A stretch of 64,000 nt of DNA from Neobacillus sp. DY30 (lineage in GTDB: Bacteria > Bacillota > Bacilli > Bacillales > Cytobacillaceae): positions 5,772,001-5,836,000 of the forward strand of contig NZ_CP126093.1 of assembly GCF_030123065.1 (NCBI RefSeq), in the 5' to 3' direction. A program made the position numbers and the translations under genes. The notes under the pieces were generated by a model. That model did not search any database. It had not been told where the DNA came from and saw only the letters and a program-made list of their open reading frames with translations. This document shows positions 24,735 to 59,339 of the stretch, piece after piece (positions within the stretch are counted from its first letter, which is position 1; every line of letters starts with the position of its first letter).

Positions 24735-27143
24735 TTAATTGTACTTTGGAACATCGTAATAAAGCGTATAATTATCTAGCATCTGATATATATTATAAAT
24801 ACTACTTACTTGCTTATAAGCCCAGCTAATATCTGTCGCATATTGATGCCAAGGTGCTATTGGATTCCATCTCATTTTATAAAGGGTATCCTGTTGAAAA
24901 GTAGTATTATAGATATAGTCTTCGCTAATAAATTTTGCTCCACCTATAATGGCTGCCTCAGGGGTAAACCATCCGTTATCATACGCGGTTTGTGCACCAC
25001 ATGTTAATGGACAAGCATCTACCGCCCCGTAACCATACATATTGTACACTGTCTTACCGTTAACTTCGATTCCATTGGCCAACTTAGATGTCCCATTACC
25101 TGTTTCTAAGAGTGCGTGCGCTATCAAGTAAACCTCATTAACGTTATATTTCTTAGCAGCGTCAACGAACGCTTGACCTTTTCCAGCCAAGATTCCTTTC
25201 CCATTCAGAATCTTATCATTAACCTCAGCAGCATTTAACTGTGCTGATTGTGAAAGTTTAAGGAACTGGAAATAATCTTTGGTATTATCTATTGAAAAAT
25301 TGCTAGGATCTAAATAAGATTTGACATCTTCTTGTTTAGCATTCTGCCAAGTTACTCTTACTTCTACCCAATCACCTATTTTTCCGATAACTAGCACACT
25401 ATTGCCACTATTTAATTTTTGAACAATCTCACTATCTATTGAAGGTGCTGTTCTTAAGTTAACACCATTCCCTGTAATTACCTGTCTGGCCATGTCTACA
25501 AATTCAGCTGACACATATCTTCGCTCATTACGATACATATCTGTTTGGGGACTTCTAGTCATTTGTATGTCCAGCATACTATTTAGGGACAAACCATAAT
25601 TTGTATACATTAGTTGAGGCCCAACTTTAGTTTTTATCGCCGTACCTATCCAGCCATACATTTGATTAAGCTTCAAATTAGCGGCCCTGACATTTTCATA
25701 TCCAATAATATCTTCAATAACAATTTGATATTGTTCTAGTCTATTACCTGTTGCTTGATAAGTAGCTGAAAGGTTATTATTCTTAAAGAATTCCTGCCCT
25801 TTTTTTACCAATGTCATTCCAAGCACAGGCTTTGAAATGACCCTATAACCTGCATATCCAATAAGCCCAGTTGGCTTATAGGTTATTGACCAGTTATTAT
25901 TGATAAAGAACCTGCGTCCTTTATTCACATGCTCTAATCCTAAAACCGGATTTGAAATAATTTGGTATCTTTCATATCCAGATTGACCTGTAGGCTTATA
26001 GGTTACTGACCAATTATTGCTTTTGAAGAAATTTCTTCCTTTGTTAACCAAATCTAATCCTAACACTGGATCTGAAATGACTTGATATCTTTCATATCCA
26101 GTTTGACCAGTTGCTTGATACGTTACAGACCAGTTATTATTTTTGAAGAAGTTTCTCCCCTTATTTACTAGGTCTGTTCCTAAAACGGGTACAGATTTAA
26201 TCTGGTATCTGTCATACCCTACTCTTCCTGTATCCTTGTATGTTATAGACCAATTATTACTTTTAAAAAAGTCTCGGCCAATATTGACTTGCTTTATTCC
26301 TAATACAGGTTCAGAGATGATTTGATACCTATTATTCCCTATAAAAACATAGCTTCCCTTTATTCCTGTAGCTTTTTCGAACTGTTGAAGAATATTTTGG
26401 GTAGCCGCTTCACCAGAGAACCCGCCGCTGACTAGTTGATAGTAACTCTGGGGTGTTCCTAAGCCTATATAAAAAGCGCCGATTCCAGTTTCTCTTTTAA
26501 ACTGCTCCATTATCTCAATAGTCCTAGCTTGGCCGGAAAACCCTCCACTAATGATTTGATAGTAGTTTAACTTTTCTCCTAAACCAACATAACTAGCATT
26601 AATCCCAGTGGAATTCTTAAATTGCTCTAATATTTGTTTAGCTGTGGTTTCTCCGTTAAAACCACCACTAATGATTTGATAATAGTCTAGTTTTTCTCCG
26701 ATACCAACATAATTACCCGTTATCCCGGTTTCAGTTTCTAATGCTTGGAGGATCTGTTTAACTGTTTCTTCCCCTGAGAAACCTCCCGTTATTAGTTGAT
26801 AATAGAGTAGTTTATCACCTAAACCAACATAATAAGCAGGAATACCAGTACTAGTTGTAAATTGGTTAAGGACATTTTTCGCATGACCTTGATCGAATAT
26901 TTCACTAGACTGAATTTGATAATACTCTTCATATGTTCCTGTAGGTTGATATTTCCCTGTCCATTCTGTTTCACTATGAAGCTTATTAAGTGCAGCATTT
27001 GCTTGTATTTCTCCACTAAATTTCCCTGTATAGAGCTTATAGGTAGATAAATCTATATAAGCGTCTGTGGTCTTAGGAAATAGTAGGAAAAAAAGCAAAG
27101 AAACACAAATTATCTTTACTATATTATAGGACTTTTTTCTCAT
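24735..27143 (-). CDS. Secreted N-acetylglucosaminidase with two families of repeats and SH3b
   Basis: 802 residues from ATG at 27143 (GGGAGG upstream). A signal peptide ends near TTDAY. Then come about seven repeats of 38-40 residues around YYQIISGGFSGE...TGI..YVGLG, then six of about 40 residues around YERYQIISNPVLG...NNNWSVTY. A bacterial SH3-like domain (VNLRTAPSIDSEIVQ) follows, then a C-terminal glucosaminidase domain with the catalytic Glu in LIAHALLETGNGTSKLA and YNMYGYGAVD. It cleaves peptidoglycan glycan strands; the repeats probably bind the wall. It is divergent in layout from LytD but similar in job. The repeats are near-identical in DNA, so copy number may vary. Confidence 0.88.
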   Translation of the reverse strand: MRKKSYNIVKIICVSLLFFLLFPKTTDAYIDLSTYKLYTGKFSGEIQANAALNKLHSETEWTGKYQPTGTYEEYYQIQSSEIFDQGHAKNVLNQFTTSTGIPAYYVGLGDKLLYYQLITGGFSGEETVKQILQALETETGITGNYVGIGEKLDYYQIISGGFNGETTAKQILEQFKNSTGINASYVGLGEKLNYYQIISGGFSGQARTIEIMEQFKRETGIGAFYIGLGTPQSYYQLVSGGFSGEAATQNILQQFEKATGIKGSYVFIGNNRYQIISEPVLGIKQVNIGRDFFKSNNWSITYKDTGRVGYDRYQIKSVPVLGTDLVNKGRNFFKNNNWSVTYQATGQTGYERYQVISDPVLGLDLVNKGRNFFKSNNWSVTYKPTGQSGYERYQIISNPVLGLEHVNKGRRFFINNNWSITYKPTGLIGYAGYRVISKPVLGMTLVKKGQEFFKNNNLSATYQATGNRLEQYQIVIEDIIGYENVRAANLKLNQMYGWIGTAIKTKVGPQLMYTNYGLSLNSMLDIQMTRSPQTDMYRNERRYVSAEFVDMARQVITGNGVNLRTAPSIDSEIVQKLNSGNSVLVIGKIGDWVEVRVTWQNAKQEDVKSYLDPSNFSIDNTKDYFQFLKLSQSAQLNAAEVNDKILNGKGILAGKGQAFVDAAKKYNVNEVYLIAHALLETGNGTSKLANGIEVNGKTVYNMYGYGAVDACPLTCGAQTAYDNGWFTPEAAIIGGAKFISEDYIYNTTFQQDTLYKMRWNPIAPWHQYATDISWAYKQVSSIYNIYQMLDNYTLYYDVPKYN

Positions 27144-46472: not shown

Positions 46473-49400
46473 TTATTGATTATAGATAAAGTTATATCCT
46501 CCACTAATTCTTTGATAAGTAATCTTGCCTGGTGATAATTTACTATATGCAATATACCAGTCACCCTTTACTAACACAGCTTGCACATCACGGCCTTCAA
46601 TTTGAAATAAACCTTTTCCTTTATCTGTGTATGGAATATTTAGAGCCTTTAAAGCATTCCAATTCACATATGCTCCATTATTAATCCTATAACCGCCTTG
46701 GGCAAAATCATTTCCATTTAATTGCACTTTTATAGGAGGCGTGATGATAAAGTTATATCCTCCACTAATTCTTTCATATCTAATCCCTGATGATAGATAA
46801 CTATATGGGATATACCAGTCTCCGTTTACCGAAACAGCCTGCACATTACGACCTTCAATAGCAAATAAACCTTTCCCTTTATCTGTAAATGGTGTATTTA
46901 GAATCTTCAAAGCATTCCAATTGACATAGGTACCATTATTAAACCTGTATCCGCCTTGTATAAAATCATTTCCATTCAACTGTACTCTAACAGGAGTTGT
47001 GTAGATAAAGTTATATCCACCGCTAAATCTTTCGTAAATGATTTTCCCTGGTGATAAGAGACTGTAAGGGATATACCAGTCTTTGTTTATTAACACAGCT
47101 TGCACATTGCGACCTTCAATTACAAATAAGCCATTCCCTTTATCTGTGTATGGAATGTTTAGAATTTTTAAGGCGTTCCAATTCACATGGGTCCCATTTT
47201 TATAGATATAACCACCTTGAGAGAAATCATTTCCATTTAATCGTACTTTTACAGGAGTAGTGTAGATAAAGTTATATCCACCACTAATTCTTTCGTAGAT
47301 GAGTCTCCCAGGTGATAATTCGTGCCAAGCGATATACCAATCTCCGTTAATTGATAATGCTTGAACGGTACGACCTTCAATTTCGAATACTCCATTACCT
47401 TTATTACTGTGTAGAATTTTTAATGCATCTAACGCCTTCCAATTTAAATGCGTATGGGAATTGGCAATATAACCTTCGGCAAAATCTACTCCATTTAGTT
47501 GTATTTTACGTGCTTGGTAACTTAGTGCTGTTTCTACCTCTGTGGTACTTTCATTTCCCGCCTCATCTTTAGCTATTACAGCGATAGTAGTACCTGAAGC
47601 TTGTGCTGCTATCGTAATACTAAACTTGCCTTCAGCATCCGCTTTACCGCTGCCGATTACTGTATCACCAATCTTTACTGTTACTTCTGCGTTTCCTTCT
47701 GTTATTCCATTTACTGAAGTTGTTTTGTCGGTAATGGCATCCACTATTGGAGCTGCTGGAGGTGTCTTATCAACCACCGTTACCGTTGTTACTTCACTAA
47801 CATTATCACCAGCATCTTTCGCCGAAACCGTAATCACTGTTCCAGCAGCTTGAACTGGTATGGCTATTGTAAAGTTCCCGCTTTCATCTGCTGTTCCTGA
47901 GTAGGTTTCTGAACCAATTGACACTGTAACACTTGCTCCGGCTTCTGTGGTTCCTGACACTGCTGTTGATTGGTCATTTACCTCCGTTACCACTGGGTTG
48001 GCTGGTGCTGTTTTATCTACCACGGTTACCCTTGTTTCCTCACTGACATTATCGGACGCGTCTTTTGCCGAAACTGTAATGACTGTTCCTTCACTTTGAA
48101 CCGGTATTGCTATTGTAAAGTTCCCGCTCTCATCTGCTGTTCCTGTGTATATCTCTGAACCTATTGATACTGTCACACTTGCTCCAGCCTCCGTCGTACC
48201 AGACACTTCTGTCGATTGATCACTTACCTCCGCTACTACAGGGTTCACTGGTGGTGTAGAATCTGCATTAGGGTCGCGGACTACGAATGATACATCATTA
48301 AAAAATGCTACAGACTGATTTCCTGACAAGTCTAACGCGTTAATAAAATCGATCGTAATAACTTCCCCGTCAGGAACATCTGTTGGAACAGTGATGGTAC
48401 CTATCCATTTCTGCAGGTTATTATCGTATGTTAAATTGATACTTTCATTTCCATTATAGTAGGCTGTTACATTTGCTACACCTGACTCTGCATCTTCAAC
48501 CATTGCAAATATGGTGACCTGTTCACCAATATTCACCTCTGTTTTATCGAGTTCAACAGCTGAAATGACTGGTCCAGTATAATCGCCTTCCAAATTAACA
48601 ACCGTAAAGCCGCCTTCTGCATCTCCAAAATTAAAATTAAATGATGGATCATAGGCAGCAACACTAACTTGATAGAAGCCTGGTGCCGTGGTTTCTTGTA
48701 CCACAAAACTTCCAGTCCATTGATCATTCTCTTCATTGTAATTCATTTCAACAAACTGAGATCCCTCTTGGCTGTAGAAAGTAGCAAATACCGAATCTAC
48801 TGCTACATTGTCCGTAACGTTAGCTGTAACAGTAACCGTTTCGCCTACTTTAACTTCTCCCTGTGTCACTTGAACATTTGAAATGACTGGAGCATCAAAG
48901 TCACCGTCATTGTTGATGACATCAAAGGCTGCAGGGTGTTCTTTATACCCGCTGTTTCCTGCTTTATCAGTCGAATGGATGACCACATTCCACACTCCTG
49001 ATTGGAAACCGGATTCGATGTTTAAGTCAGCCACCCATTCTCCCGTGTTTGGATCCAATGTCATGTGACGAAGATAAATATCATTCGGATGGTCAATATG
49101 TGAGAATTCCGCATAGACCGACCTTACACCCGATTTGTCATCACTGACTGGAACTGAAACCCTCACACTCTCTCCTGGAGCGGCTGTTTTTGGTGAAATG
49201 ACTGGCGTACCAATCGCTGGGCTTGTATAGTCACTAAGAGGATTGGTTAATACTAATTTCTCCTCTAGCGTTACCCAATCAAAGTTTCCAGCTTTGTCAA
49301 ACATATCGATATCGATATACCATGAACCCGGCTGATCGCTTTCGCTAAAAATATGGCTGCCTACCCACTCACCTGTAGCTTCATCTAATGTTAGAGGTAC

Positions 49401-50054
49401 ATAATGATACCCCGTGCTATCAGCTGTGTATATAGCAGCAAATACGGATGCTACTCCGTTCGCATCATTCACTTTTGTACGAATGGTAACCTCTTCATTT
49501 ACACCTACTGCTAGAGGTGTGATCGTTCTAGACTCTAACGTTGGTGCTTCAGCGTCCCCGCCATTTGGGTTCACTACTTGAACTTCAATCGGTTCCGCTG
49601 GCAGTGCATACGTGTAATTACCTGCTGCGTCGAATAAATCAAAATCTATTATCCAGGTACCTTCTAAGTCTAACTCCGTGATCGTATATGTACCTTTCCA
49701 TTCCCCTGTAGCTGTATCAAGTTCCAGTGGAAGGACTTTGTACCCAGTTCCATTTGGTAGATTTAAGTAGGCATCTACCGCTGCCACACCACTTAGATCA
49801 TCAGAAACCTGAGCCGTAATTGTAATTGTTTCTCCTACTGCCGCTGTAGTTGGATTGACCGTTGCACTTTCAAGAACGGGTCCGAATAAATCTTCTGCCA
49901 GCGCTCCAATAGAAGTAGAATCTACTGCAGCCTTTACTTGACTCTCTACTTTTATGGATTGCGGAATCACTGCTCCATTAGTCCCTGCCAAAGCACCTCC
50001 CGGAAGAGACAATGATAAGCACAAAACACTAATAACAATGGATTTTTTCCTCAA
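46473..50054 (-). CDS. Secreted 1193-residue surface protein with Ig-like and C-terminal wall-type repeats
   Basis: Signal peptide (residues 1-23, ending GGALAG). Residues 50-600 hold about five Ig-like repeats of 105-110 residues (DFDAPVISNVQVTQGEV-KVGETVTVTANVTD ... YQVSVAAYD). Residues 600-855 hold three near-identical 85-residue Ig-like repeats (TEAGASVTVSIGSE, DESGNFTIAIPVQ). Residues 860-1193 hold four and a half repeats of about 80 residues (KVRLNGNDFSQGGYI, NWNALKILN, GLFVIEGRNVQAV, DWYIPYSLLSPGK, YERISGGYNFIY). No LPXTG motif, so attachment is probably through the last repeats. TTG start, GGGAGGG six bases upstream. Likely a matrix or adhesin protein. DNA of the middle repeats is nearly identical, inviting recombination. 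Confidence 0.82.
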   Translation of the reverse strand: MRKKSIVISVLCLSLSLPGGALAGTNGAVIPQSIKVESQVKAAVDSTSIGALAEDLFGPVLESATVNPTTAAVGETITITAQVSDDLSGVAAVDAYLNLPNGTGYKVLPLELDTATGEWKGTYTITELDLEGTWIIDFDLFDAAGNYTYALPAEPIEVQVVNPNGGDAEAPTLESRTITPLAVGVNEEVTIRTKVNDANGVASVFAAIYTADSTGYHYVPLTLDEATGEWVGSHIFSESDQPGSWYIDIDMFDKAGNFDWVTLEEKLVLTNPLSDYTSPAIGTPVISPKTAAPGESVRVSVPVSDDKSGVRSVYAEFSHIDHPNDIYLRHMTLDPNTGEWVADLNIESGFQSGVWNVVIHSTDKAGNSGYKEHPAAFDVINNDGDFDAPVISNVQVTQGEVKVGETVTVTANVTDNVAVDSVFATFYSQEGSQFVEMNYNEENDQWTGSFVVQETTAPGFYQVSVAAYDPSFNFNFGDAEGGFTVVNLEGDYTGPVISAVELDKTEVNIGEQVTIFAMVEDAESGVANVTAYYNGNESINLTYDNNLQKWIGTITVPTDVPDGEVITIDFINALDLSGNQSVAFFNDVSFVVRDPNADSTPPVNPVVAEVSDQSTEVSGTTEAGASVTVSIGSEIYTGTADESGNFTIAIPVQSEGTVITVSAKDASDNVSEETRVTVVDKTAPANPVVTEVNDQSTAVSGTTEAGASVTVSIGSETYSGTADESGNFTIAIPVQAAGTVITVSAKDAGDNVSEVTTVTVVDKTPPAAPIVDAITDKTTSVNGITEGNAEVTVKIGDTVIGSGKADAEGKFSITIAAQASGTTIAVIAKDEAGNESTTEVETALSYQARKIQLNGVDFAEGYIANSHTHLNWKALDALKILHSNKGNGVFEIEGRTVQALSINGDWYIAWHELSPGRLIYERISGGYNFIYTTPVKVRLNGNDFSQGGYIYKNGTHVNWNALKILNIPYTDKGNGLFVIEGRNVQAVLINKDWYIPYSLLSPGKIIYERFSGGYNFIYTTPVRVQLNGNDFIQGGYRFNNGTYVNWNALKILNTPFTDKGKGLFAIEGRNVQAVSVNGDWYIPYSYLSSGIRYERISGGYNFIITPPIKVQLNGNDFAQGGYRINNGAYVNWNALKALNIPYTDKGKGLFQIEGRDVQAVLVKGDWYIAYSKLSPGKITYQRISGGYNFIYNQ

Positions 50055-51156: not shown

Positions 51157-52392
51157 ATGAAGAAATTAATGGTTCGCGCAGTTTCGACTGCTGCCTTTCT
51201 TTCGACGGTTTATGCAGGGTCGGCGTATGCCAGTACCCATACTGTTGAAAAAGGAGATTCCCTATGGGAAATAGCAAAAAAATATCAAACTACTGTTTCA
51301 GAATTAAAAAGCTTGAATAACTTAACATCTGATTTTCTTCAGGTGAATCAAACATTGAAGGTTTCAGCTGTTCCAGAAATTAAGAAAACAACAGCAGCTA
51401 GTACTAGTACATCATCACCTTCTACTAGTAATTATGTTGTTAAGAGCGGTGATTACCTTGGCAAAATCGCTGGGCAATTTAACACGACGGTTCAAGAGTT
51501 GAAGTCACTTAATAGTTTGAAATCTGATATGATTTATGTTGGACAAACACTTAAGGTCTCAGGAAAGGTTGAGACAGCGCCTCCCGTTGCCGTTACACCG
51601 CCGCCAGCAGCCGTTTCATCCACTGCGGTTTACACGGTTGTAAGTGGGGATACCTTGAGTAAAATCGGTGTACAGTATAAAATGACTGTTCAAGAATTAA
51701 AACAGCTAAATGGCTTAAAGTCCGATATGATTTATGTAGGCCAGAAATTGAAGGTTTCGGGAAAGGCAAGTGTAACCACTCCGCCTCCAGCCCCTGCAAC
51801 ACCACCCGTTACGGCTCCTGTAACAACTCCTGTTGGACCTGCGAAAACGACTGAATACACAGTTAAAAGCGGCGATACATTAGGTGGTATTTCATCTAGT
51901 TATAAAATGACTGTCCAGGAATTAAGGAATCTTAACGGATTGAAATCCGATATGATTTACGTGGGGCAAAAACTGAAGGTTAGCGGTTCTGCACCGGAGG
52001 TAAAACCGACTGCAGCACCGAGCACTGCGTTCCAGACGGAACTTATTACTGTTGCAAAAAGCTTAATCGGTGTCCCTTACGTGTGGGCAGGCAGCTCCTT
52101 ATCTGGCTTTGACTGCAGCGGCTTCATTTATTATGCTGCCAATCAAGCCGGCTACAAAATCGGGCGCTATTCAGCAGAAGGCTACTATAGCCGTACCTAC
52201 TACGTTGATCAGCCACAACCGGGTGATTTAGTCTTTTTTGAAAATACATATAAAAAAGGAATCTCTCATCTAGGTATTTATCTTGGCAATAACGAGTTCA
52301 TCCATGCCGATGCAACGAAGGGTGTTACCATCTCAAACCTGTCCAACTCTTATTACAAAGCACACTTTGATGGGTTTAAGCGATTTTATTAA
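51157..52392 (+). CDS. LysM-NlpC/P60 peptidoglycan endopeptidase (LytE/LytF/CwlS-like)
   Basis: 411 residues. A signal peptide ends near AYAS. Four LysM domains follow at about 27-70, 90-133, 153-197 and 230-273, each with [16 protein letters not shown]-type starts and [17 protein letters not shown]-type ends, joined by Pro/Thr linkers. The C-terminal NlpC/P60 domain has the catalytic Cys in [15 protein letters not shown], His in ISHLGIYLG and a third residue in FIHADATKG. It cuts D-gamma-Glu-mDAP stem-peptide bonds, as LytE and LytF do. GAGGTG precedes ATG. The neighbouring repeats have similar DNA. Confidence 0.94.
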
Positions 52393-52407
52393 TTCAACGA
52401 TTTCATG

Positions 52408-52434
52408 AAAGCCAGACATTTTGTCTGGCTTTTT
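52408..52434 (+). terminator. Terminator of the LysM endopeptidase gene
   Basis: AAAGCCAGACA-TTT-TGTCTGGCTTT followed by T-run. The T-run ends 32 bp before the first GCAGRTA array, the same distance as seen for the arrays further on. Confidence 0.92.
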
Positions 52435-52465
52435 AGTATTGAGTTTTGGGGATTGAATTTGTTAG

Positions 52466-52555
52466 GCAGATAAACAAGGCTTATAGGCAGGTAAAATGGA
52501 ATCTATGCAGGTAAGCCGGCAATATCCGCAGGTAGAGTATTCATTTTGGCAGGTA
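52466..52555 (+). repeat. GCAGRTA array 1
   Basis: Five heptamers GCAGATA/GCAGGTA begin at 52466, 52487, 52507, 52528 and 52549: spacing 21, 20, 21, 21. The spaces are not conserved as a block, but are the same as in array 2 in many places. Non-coding: no ORF crosses it with a start. Confidence 0.9.
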
Positions 52556-52639
52556 GGTAATTAAAATGTACACTGGAATTTAGAATTTAAACTTATTATC
52601 GAGCTCAAAACCCAAATATAGAAATTAAATCATCTATAG

Positions 52640-52660
52640 CAGGCGGTATCCTGACTTTTT
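52640..52660 (+). repeat. Terminator-like hairpin preceding array 2
   Basis: CAGG-CGGTAT-CCTG then ACTTTTT. The T-run ends 33 bp before array 2. There is no gene upstream for it to end, so it seems to be copied with the array. Confidence 0.6.
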
Positions 52661-52692
52661 CAGTGGTGAGTTTGGTCCGCTGAATTTGGAAG

Positions 52693-52782
52693 GCAGGTAA
52701 ACATAGCATTTAGGCAGGTAAAATGGAATCTATGCAGGTAAGCCGGCAATATCCGCAGCTAGAGGATTCATTTTAGCAGGTA
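52693..52782 (+). repeat. GCAGRTA array 2
   Basis: Heptamers at 52693, 52714, 52734, 52755 (degenerate GCAGCTA) and 52776: spacing again 21, 20, 21, 21. The unit including flanks is 227-228 bp from the first and third arrays. Confidence 0.9.
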
Positions 52783-52867
52783 GGTAATTAAAATCTACAC
52801 TGGAATTTGGAATTTAAGCTTATTATCAAGCTTAAAACCCAAATATAGTAAATTAAATCATCTATAG

Positions 52868-52888
52868 CAGGCGCTAGCCTGACTTTTT
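52868..52888 (+). repeat. Terminator-like hairpin preceding array 3
   Basis: CAGGC-GCTA-GCCTG then ACTTTTT; the T-run ends 33 bp before array 3. The stem bases differ from the hairpin before array 2 while pairing is kept, suggesting compensating change. Confidence 0.6.
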
Positions 52889-52920
52889 CTGTGGTGTGTT
52901 TGGTCCGCTGAATTTGTTAG

Positions 52921-53010
52921 GCAGATAAACAAAGCATATAGGCAGATAAAATAGAATCTATGCAGGTAAGCAAACCAAATCCGCAGGTAGAGGATTCATT
53001 TTGGCAGATA
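52921..53010 (+). repeat. GCAGRTA array 3
   Basis: Heptamers at 52921, 52942, 52962, 52983 and 53004, spacing 21, 20, 21, 21, identical to arrays 1 and 2. Confidence 0.9.
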
Positions 53011-53103
53011 AGATAAAAGAGGTAAATAAAAACCACACTCGAATTCAGCCCATATGCCTAATTCCAAAACAGAATACCCATATAAAGGAAATTTAAGACC
53101 TTA

Positions 53104-53248
53104 GCCAGGCTGCCGCCTTGCTTTTTCAACTATATAAATCTGCCATCGAGATAAAATGACAGAAAGGGTGTGGTTTTTGCAGGTAAAAGGCTTAATTAGG
53201 CAGGTAAACAAACCAGATCTGCAGGTAGAGTAACACTTTTGGCAGATA
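53104..53248 (+). repeat. Hairpin and GCAGRTA array 4
   Basis: GCCAGGCTGCCGCCTTGC hairpin and CTTTTT (ending 53126) are followed after 32 bp by a decayed heptamer (GACAGAA at 53158) and intact ones at 53179, 53200, 53221 and 53242, each 21 bp apart. This array ends at the stop of the next gene (53255). Confidence 0.82.
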
Positions 53249-53254
53249 ACAAAG

Positions 53255-53878
53255 TTACTTTAACACCGGACCTTTCTTTTTAGTTCTCATCGGCTTCTTA
53301 TCACCCTTCTCCTTCGCATTCTTTTGTAACCACAGAAAGATGTCTGTGATCACTTTTGATAAGACAAGGATTACGATATAGCTTAGAAACAGGTGAAAGT
53401 AATTTGCCCATGAGTTGAACTTGAACAAATTATGCATGACAAGAATTGGTTTTAGGATGAACGAGAGACCCAAACTTAATAGCAATGTATAGAGGTAATA
53501 GTTTTTATTATGTTTATTCGTCCATTGGTACACTAATATGAACGATACCGGAACCAACGATGCGTCCAATCCGAGATTATGTGCGACAAAAGGTATCATC
53601 TTATAAGGAAACGACCAAAGTGCTTGAGTCGAACCAAAATCATCAAAATAGGCAAACCAAACATGTACGTTGAATCCATAGAAGCCAAGCTGGAGCGCCC
53701 GTTTCCAGTCCATAGCAAAATAAAGAATGATGAGCGGGGACAGAAACATAATAACGGTGAACCAAAATTGCCACGTATCCAAGGCAGAAAAATCATGCCA
53801 ATATTTCAGCCATTGTGCAGCTCCCTCTTGCTGTTCTTTTATTAATTTATTTAAGGCCTCTTTTTGTGCATCACTCAT
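53255..53878 (-). CDS. CBO0543-like integral membrane protein
   Basis: 207 residues. A soluble N-terminus of about 35 residues (MSDAQKEALNKLIKEQQEG), then five or six membrane helices with aromatic-rich loops (LQLGFYGFNVHVWFAYFDDFG, FPYKMIPFVAHNLG) and a basic tail (KKPMRTKKKG). It resembles the Bacillus/Clostridium CBO0543 family of unknown function, often near sporulation genes. Weak ribosome site. The stop lies six bases past the last GCAGRTA heptamer. Confidence 0.7.
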   Translation of the reverse strand: MSDAQKEALNKLIKEQQEGAAQWLKYWHDFSALDTWQFWFTVIMFLSPLIILYFAMDWKRALQLGFYGFNVHVWFAYFDDFGSTQALWSFPYKMIPFVAHNLGLDASLVPVSFILVYQWTNKHNKNYYLYTLLLSLGLSFILKPILVMHNLFKFNSWANYFHLFLSYIVILVLSKVITDIFLWLQKNAKEKGDKKPMRTKKKGPVLK

Positions 53879-58818: not shown

Positions 58819-58888
58819 TATAATATATTAGACGCGAGGAAGCACCTGGCGTTACATGGACTGACTTTTTATAGTCAGCCTTTTTTTT
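58819..58888 (+). ncRNA. Possible short transcript with strong terminator
   Basis: TATAAT at 58819-58824 is followed within 60 bases by GGACTGACT-TTTTAT-AGTCAGCC and eight T (58858-58889). No gene lies upstream on this strand. It may be a short RNA or a remnant terminator. The hairpin is certain; the promoter lacks a -35. Confidence 0.35.
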
Positions 58889-58985
58889 CTGGTATTTCAT
58901 TATGTGTTCCAAATTCATAGTTTATATGCAGATTTTTTGTTTTACGTGGACATTAATGCTAAGACCTCCAGGCGAACGACCGGAT

Positions 58986-59137
58986 AAGGTCATTGAGATT
59001 GTTCTATTTCTGAGTGCAGAACGCTAATTTCCGAACTCTATTAGATGACCTTTTTAAGAAAAACCAACTTATGTGCCAAAATAAAAACTTATGTGCCGAA
59101 TCATAGTTTTATGTGCCGATTTGATAATTTACGTGCC
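58986..59137 (+). repeat. TTAYGTGCC array 1 with preceding hairpin
   Basis: AAGGTCAT (58986-58993) pairs with ATGACCTT (59045-59052), followed by TTTTT. Fourteen bases later nonamers TTATGTGCC or TTACGTGCC begin at 59069, 59089, 59109 and 59129, exactly 20 bp apart. Non-coding; contains GAGTGCAGAACGCTAAT, repeated in the next unit. Confidence 0.88.
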
Positions 59138-59194
59138 CAAATTGATATTTCCACAAAGGAAAAGCCAAAAAATCCAGCGAACGCCTGGATTAGA

Positions 59195-59339
59195 TTTAGA
59201 AAGCGGACATTTTGAGTGCGGAAAGCTAATCTAGTATTCTATTAAATGCCCTTTTTAAGCAAAGCCACTTTTATGTGCCAAAATAATAACTTACGTGCCG
59301 AATCATAGATTTACGTGCCGATTTTCAATTTTACGTGCC
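59195..59339 (+). repeat. TTAYGTGCC array 2 with preceding hairpin
   Basis: GGACATTT and AAATGCCC (one mismatch) flank GAGTGCGGAAAGCTAAT, then TTTTT. Fifteen bases later nonamers begin at 59271, 59291, 59311 and 59331, exactly 20 bp apart. The unit is 202 bp from array 1. Confidence 0.88.

Follow-up and report, generated by a model that had tools for sequence, protein, structure and literature searches.

Arrays of short words about two helical turns apart lie past gene ends in Neobacillus and may serve as protein-binding platforms

We analysed a window of 64,000 nucleotides from Neobacillus sp. DY30 (NZ_CP126093.1, positions 5,772,001 to 5,836,000), which lies on a single 6.14-Mb contig that starts with dnaA and dnaN. 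Behind a peptidoglycan hydrolase gene of this window, the heptamer GCAGRTA (GCAGATA or GCAGGTA) recurs at steps of 20 or 21 bp in four intergenic units. Genes were called with a home-made codon model and not taken from annotation. The features of the locus, in window coordinates, are the following.

51157 to 52392, plus strand: gene for a peptidoglycan hydrolase with four LysM domains and an NlpC/P60 domain, upstream of the array (Pfam LysM, 1.1e-71; NLPC_P60, 9.7e-30)
52410 to 52434, plus strand: native intrinsic terminator of the LysM gene, hairpin AGCCAGACATTTTGTCTGGCT with a T-run, followed by unit 1 (from the sequence; hairpin score 29.5)
52466 to 52555, plus strand: unit 1, five GCAGRTA with gaps of 21, 20, 21 and 21 (starts 52466, 52487, 52507, 52528, 52549)
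52640 to 52660, plus strand: hairpin of unit 2, CAGGCGGTATCCTG with a T-run, weak (from the sequence; score 13.5)
52693 to 52782, plus strand: unit 2, five sites, the fourth altered to GCAGCTA by one mismatch (starts 52693, 52714, 52734, 52755 for the altered site, 52776)
52868 to 52888, plus strand: hairpin of unit 3, CAGGCGCTAGCCTG with a T-run (simple hairpin scan; score 17)
52921 to 53010, plus strand: unit 3, five GCAGRTA with gaps of 21, 20, 21 and 21 (starts 52921, 52942, 52962, 52983, 53004)
53103 to 53126, plus strand: hairpin of unit 4, AGCCAGGCTGCCGCCTTGCT with a T-run (from the sequence; score 19)
53158 to 53248, plus strand: unit 4, a decayed site GACAGAA at 53158 and then four GCAGRTA, all gaps 21 (starts 53179, 53200, 53221, 53242)
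53255 to 53878, minus strand: convergent gene for a predicted protein of 207 amino acids with no confident family, UPF0542 being below the cut-off (gene call and profile search)

The first heptamer of unit 1 lies 34 bp past the end of the hairpin, and unit 4 ends 6 bp short of the convergent gene's stop codon. A recount on the sequence returned the heptamer positions and gaps that a sequence-only reading of this DNA had given for the four units, including the uniform 21-bp gaps of unit 4 and the decay of its first site, and a repeat finder confirmed the period of units 1 to 3 (227 and 228 bp). That reading had placed five copies of GCAGATA or GCAGGTA in every unit, which is correct for units 1 and 3 but not for unit 2 with its altered fourth site. 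It had also described a terminator-like hairpin in each unit; all four are present, but their strength is uneven, as the scores above indicate, and the simple hairpin scan of the window listed the hairpin of unit 3 and not those of units 1, 2 and 4. Unit 4 is likely an array in its own right, next to the convergent gene. At least three GCAGRTA are found at this gene in six of the ten other orthologous loci examined.

The window holds 13 GCAGRTA pairs, whereas 100 shuffles gave none. In the whole genome, pairs 19–22 bp apart number 111 for GCAGRTA and 2 for the reversed word, and triples with steps of 18–23 bp number 74 and 0, respectively. A chance origin of the arrays was rejected on the basis of these shuffles and reversed controls. 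The arrays lie at 13 places in the DY30 genome and are of two kinds. Class A is found at ten places, of which eight fall between 5.58 and 5.93 Mb. Its units of about 227–250 bp mostly contain five sites spaced 21, 20, 21 and 21, and a locus holds from one to five such units. In class B, four GCAGATA follow each other in one run at gaps of 20, 20 and 20; runs of this kind occur at 3.53, 4.20 and 5.45 Mb. Varied native terminators stand upstream of the first units, while most inner units share hairpins resembling AGCCAGGC. The array behind spoIID (G000:C1:5884201-5884698, L273) ends in a decaying unit with two of its five sites intact; this block is a natural series from intact to degraded.

Across the genus, GCAGRTA triples were found in 32 of 61 Neobacillus genomes. 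GCAGATA triples occur in 10 of 397 genomes of the order, DY30 included, and some of these order-wide matches (e.g. G180, G244 and G351) resemble plain tandem repeats. A wider contig scan returned at least 118 stretches in which true arrays are mixed with simple tandem repeats of unrelated phyla; 32 of these stretches, picked by organism name and by look, were used. A scan of viral sequences gave 81 stretches, and the one inspected, L185, is a run with near-identical spacers. The sequence-only reading had proposed a search of the genome and its relatives for at least three phased GCAGRTA, and had named two findings that would speak against its view: no other arrays, or a single recent tandem duplication whose spacing is kept by identity only. 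Neither was found. Arrays are present elsewhere, their occurrence at many loci excludes a single tandem duplication, and the point on identity is answered by the divergence of the spacers.

The arrays of the genus and the order were selected by their 20–21 bp steps, so their gap histogram is partly circular, and the unbiased tests of spacing are a de novo scan and a count with wider steps. In the de novo scan, 400 kb of the DY30 genome were searched for 6-mers with at least three different letters that recur at periods of 12–60 in at least four copies. This yielded 516 chains, and the 148 chains with spacers less than 70% alike gave 30 entries, all of them the GCAGRTA word at 20–22 bp; this result covers the 148 chains with unlike spacers out of the 516, and an array may count once per strand. 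The same scan gave no chain in a Markov control sequence, no entry in 200 kb of E. coli K-12, and one entry (six GTTATA in G107) when 20 genomes of the order were sampled for 330 kb in total. For the wider count, GCASRTA pairs were collected in the genome G014 with steps of 10–40 bp allowed. Among the 50 pairs listed (55 in all), 39 are at 20 or 21 bp by hand count, and the remaining 11 are spread over seven other spacings.

We then compared the letters of the heptamers with those around them, using 26 units of class A. At the six fixed positions of the heptamer, 0.8% of comparisons within a locus and 1.6% between loci show a difference, whereas the figures are 13.5% and 37.3% for the bases between the heptamers, and 39.6% and 55.2% for the stretch that lies 33 to 9 bp ahead of the first site. 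Because the 26 units had been found by their heptamers, the test was redone with units chosen on heptamers 1–3. In the resulting 25 units, heptamers 4 and 5 are intact in 44 of 50 cases, and in pairwise comparison their fixed positions differ by 3.2% as against 39.8% for the spacers. The mirror test, with units chosen on heptamers 3–5, was weaker (38 of 46 cases with heptamers 1 and 2 intact; differences of 20.8% at fixed positions and 42.8% in spacers), which may be due to units with a differing first gap. Spacing kept only by sequence identity is thus excluded, as the spacers diverge while the heptamers and their phase stay. The earlier proposal of selection on helical phase is supported by these intact words amid drifting spacers and by the de novo scan, which singles out 20–22 bp.

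The heptamer itself is not the only word on this lattice. A second array is found in the window, between two divergent genes.

59070 to 59338, minus strand: array of the word GCACRTA in two units (59272 to 59338 and 59070 to 59136), each of four sites with gaps of 20, 20 and 20 (word search)
59167 to 59191, minus strand: terminator-like hairpin AATCCAGGCGTTCGCTGGATT with a T-run between the two GCACRTA units (from the sequence; score 20.5)

An apparent decayed third GCACRTA unit lies at about 58880–58960. Triples of GCACRTA occur in 13 of the 61 Neobacillus genomes, DY30 included, with none in the control. Two further words came from other genomes. A de novo scan of 200 kb of G007, a genome that has neither GCAGRTA nor GCACRTA triples, gave five entries, one of which is GTAGAATT in four copies at 21, 21 and 21 bp after a gene and a strong terminator; the others are a run of GCGGTTT every 21 bp, one CATCAT run and two arrays whose steps are 51–53 bp. 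The same scan of 200 kb of G037 gave no entry. The word GACAGTWA was first taken from a locus in G052. In the genus, these two words were searched for as pairs and GCAGRTA and GCACRTA as triples: GTAGAATT pairs are present in 18 of 61 genomes (control 0) and GACAGTWA pairs in 23 of 61 (4 control matches). By hand count, at least one of the four words is present in 51 of the 61 genomes, or in 48 without the three genomes that have a lone pair only, and none of the four in 10. At the level of the order, GACAGTWA triples were found in 12 of 397 genomes.

Orthologous loci revealed that one word may stand in for another. Behind the LysM gene, after the orthologous terminator, the arrays are of the GCAG word in G000 (DY30) and G008, and of the GCAC word in G049, G034 and G035. 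At the spoIID locus (TIGR02870), the GCAG word is found in G000 and Bacillus sp. HOT.CON.97 and the GCAC word in G008 and G049. The place and geometry of the array are kept between species while the letters change. This variation of the heptamer at constant spacing goes beyond what the sequence-only reading could have known. Since the word is swapped at the same gene end, the conserved feature must be the phased array and not its letters. Copy number changes as well. G034 and G035 are close relatives, with 87–97% identity over the larger flanking blocks. Behind the LysM gene, the GCAC array counts five sites in G034 and seven in G035, all intact, with changed spacers, and a three-unit GCAG block in G035 is missing from G034 at the same site.

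We next examined the position of the arrays relative to genes, using 96 GCAG and GCAC arrays that had been reduced by identical 90-bp keys only, so that some are orthologs of each other. Within 250 bp to the left, the closest gene shares the strand of the array in 66 of 79 cases (binomial p 1e-9, the arrays not being fully independent). By flanking genes, 37 of 86 arrays lie in convergent, 40 in codirectional and 9 in divergent regions. The base figures, counted over the 170 intergenic regions that measure 120 bp or more in 400 kb of the DY30 genome, are 28, 92 and 50, and against them convergent regions are enriched (p 8e-6) and divergent regions depleted (p 5e-4), in a comparison that sets one genome against arrays from many. 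This scarcity in divergent regions excludes the operator of a nearby promoter as a general role. The GTAGAATT and GACAGTWA arrays showed no clear gene orientation (left gene plus 10, minus 7, and plus 10, minus 8, respectively).

A strong terminator precedes 38 of 91 arrays on the same strand and 9 on the opposite strand. After the array, there are 4 on the same strand and 16 on the opposite strand (n = 91), and in random windows the figure is 11 of 480. The sequence-only reading had suggested a possible tie of the element to terminators and had asked whether the arrays follow them in one orientation. A single orientation past gene 3' ends is borne out for the GCAG and GCAC words, with the terminator lying between gene and array where one is found. 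The tie to terminators holds in that units carry their own, but the 38 of 91 is about equal to the base rate behind same-strand genes of the DY30 region (19 of 53), which points to an association with gene ends, the array lying past the terminator, and not with terminators as such. The arrays may therefore follow gene ends. A fixed spacer of 32–33 bp had been read between hairpin and first site. In the window this is nearly so, with 31–32 bp from T-run to first site, but in the 40 arrays with a strong terminator the first site stands anywhere between 9 and 90 bp past the hairpin; a fixed terminator distance fails as a general rule, and the spacer is a trait of one unit family.

Given the words, the lattice, the conservation of sites amid drift, the position of the GCAG and GCAC arrays, the word switching and the copy-number differences, we infer, tentatively and with somewhat less than even confidence, that the arrays are binding platforms for proteins at the ends of transcription units. 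One sequence-specific protein unit would sit on each heptamer. As sites 20–21 bp apart are separated by about two helical turns, neighbouring proteins would be lined up head to tail along the same face of the helix and could bind together. The likely use would be a nucleoprotein block that stops or absorbs polymerase escaping the terminator and that separates convergent or neighbouring genes; among possible uses, a block at the end of a transcription unit appears most likely because the GCAG and GCAC arrays lie past gene ends and are scarce in divergent regions. Different words would be read by related proteins of changed specificity, several per genome and presumably one for each word. The length of the block would change by single sites of 20–21 bp or by whole modules of tail, terminator and array. 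Counting against this reading are the terminator rate near the base level, the absence of a clear orientation for the GTAGAATT and GACAGTWA arrays, the position of the window's GCAC array between divergent genes, the weaker mirror test and the 10 genomes in which none of the four words appeared.

The strongest rival, which we regard as unlikely but serious, is a role in recombination or as a mobile element. The array blocks would be sites of DNA exchange or insertion, a non-autonomous element of array, tail and terminator would spread behind gene ends, the words and their phase would be needed by a recombinase or transposase, and tandem blocks would arise from recombination at the arrays. The structure of the multi-unit blocks is in line with this. 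Most are built as native terminator–array–(tail–terminator–array)n, also in other genomes, G013 having an unrelated hairpin: in 18 of 20 blocks no terminator scoring at least 18 lies within 170 bp past the last array, and 17 of the 20 continue there with sequence that is 0.53–0.74 alike to the inner tails, a range that overlaps that of the inner tails among themselves (0.63–1.00). Such a form fits unequal exchange at the arrays, so that the arrays could be recombination sites. The recurrence of similar class A units at many loci, the block present in G035 and absent from G034, and the placement of blocks where insertion should be nearly harmless also fit. Against it, the stretch past the last array is still 0.87–0.99 like the inner tails in L129, L336 and L346, and single arrays with unlike spacers stay in phase. 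No associated gene was found, and neither a terminal inverted repeat nor a target duplication was noticed on incidental inspection. The Mu-type transposase domain PF09299, the one domain family searched, has no match in the DY30 genome, which excludes a resident transposase of this kind, and among the 21 of 61 genomes that have it, 7 are of the 32 GCAG-positive and 14 of the 29 negative genomes (hand count), so there is no positive link.

That the arrays act as RNA seems improbable; in this view, the periodic sites would lie in 3' or read-through transcripts, where they would be bound by a regulatory protein or serve as a sponge. Units do contain terminators, and in some units the tails (e.g. 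L346, L270 and L296) have an early AGGTCATT or AGGTAA complementary to a stretch just before the terminator, as with AGGTCATT and its complement in L346; such stretches could possibly form a long-range stem. However, strong same-strand terminators follow far fewer arrays than they precede (4 as against 38 of 91), and base-exact spacing of 20 or 21 has no obvious role in single-stranded RNA. The RNA decoy that the sequence-only reading had listed thus becomes less likely, since terminators after the array are rare and a two-turn spacing would be a trait of double-stranded DNA. A search of window positions 52000–53500 gave no Rfam match up to E = 1, which leaves out a known structured RNA family.

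A functionless minisatellite that grows by slippage at about two helical turns has only a slight chance in our estimate. It could account for the site numbers that differ in close relatives (five and seven in G034 and G035), but slippage should not hold seven positions while the 13–14 between them drift to 26–43% identity, and the scarcity in divergent regions would be left unexplained. Least probable are relics of Tn7-like transposon ends with helically phased transposase sites: in VchCAST the ends have several TnsB sites whose spacing matters with the helical period, as far as described in PMC10201428, but there is no PF09299 match in the DY30 genome, no cargo was recognised between paired ends, and the independent sites are many. 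Within a block the units share orientation, and among the 13 DY30 loci a single pair of blocks has opposite orientations. Its members (5884k minus, 5890k plus) are separated by about 5.5 kb with the chromosomal spoIID gene between them, and no element was recognised.

Among known systems, plasmid iterons are direct repeats about two helical turns apart that are bound head to tail. The GCAGRTA arrays differ in that they are chromosomal, dispersed and beside ordinary genes; the genes next to 12 DY30 arrays are of mixed functions as judged by eye, and no rep or initiator gene was recognised by eye in the first 60 residues of the neighbours. REP and BIME elements are abundant intergenic repeats in composite structures that bind several proteins and have suggested roles in chromosome organisation and termination (PMC2817692). 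The arrays resemble them in being composite and intergenic, but REPs are palindromic and alternate in orientation, whereas the arrays consist of heptamers in the same direction on a two-turn lattice. Between 52390 and 53260 a repeat finder detected no palindromic unit, and the sole inverted repeat has its arms at 52805–52821 and 52828–52844, outside the heptamers. In pneumococcus, BOX elements are interspersed with tandem internal modules (boxB), and SPRITE elements are terminator-like and enriched near the 3' ends of convergent genes (PMC3049150). The multi-unit blocks hold terminators and the arrays are enriched at convergent sites, but single arrays are heptamers without a hairpin of their own, and the elements in that source are defined by secondary structure, with no phased array in the description given. 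The TAACTGA repeats of Beggiatoaceae are short, mostly intergenic heptamer repeats with many sets per genome and a proposed role in regulator binding; split sets are divided by a related 7-mer and most sets point at start codons (PMC4679880). We read them as contiguous from the description of split sets, and they differ from the GCAGRTA sites, which are 20–21 bp apart and at gene ends.

Searches of the full-text literature, including searches for the words themselves, found no description of such arrays; our claim of novelty is limited to the open-licence papers that were covered. In a broader form of the platform reading, which we put forward with more reserve still, the arrays would be a class of elements scattered over the chromosome that share a fixed two-turn lattice but differ in their words. 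Several families of DNA-binding proteins, each with a word of 7–8 bp of its own, would mark where transcription units end across Bacillales, and the word at a given gene could be swapped while the array stays. At its boldest, this would be a bacterial insulator or roadblock with dialects. If the arrays are platforms at gene ends, they would represent a layer of chromosome organisation in bacilli that our searches did not find described. They would also offer natural binding sites of several specificities that share one geometry, and the word swap at one gene end makes the function testable. Even as mobile elements they would be of a kind defined by helical phase and not by palindromes.

Several other periodic sequences were observed. 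The two G007 arrays with 51–53 bp steps, or about five helical turns (L386–L395, joined offsets 122598 and 151657), have the words GACAAA in seven and CTATTG in six copies, and their units look hairpin-like by eye. The GCGGTTT run of the same genome (L390:15535-15770) recurs every 21 bp in tandem units 146 bp apart, and the opposite strand of the unit in part reads GC[CT]GATAT, a word similar to GCAGATAT. In G107, of another genus of the family, the six GTTATA (L486:19865) have steps of 21–23 bp near a contig end and are possibly a fifth word. The window itself has long tandem repeats at 25853–26264, 46483–47413 and 47755–48257 with periods of 120, 261 and 246, respectively, the latter two within the large gene at 46473–50054.
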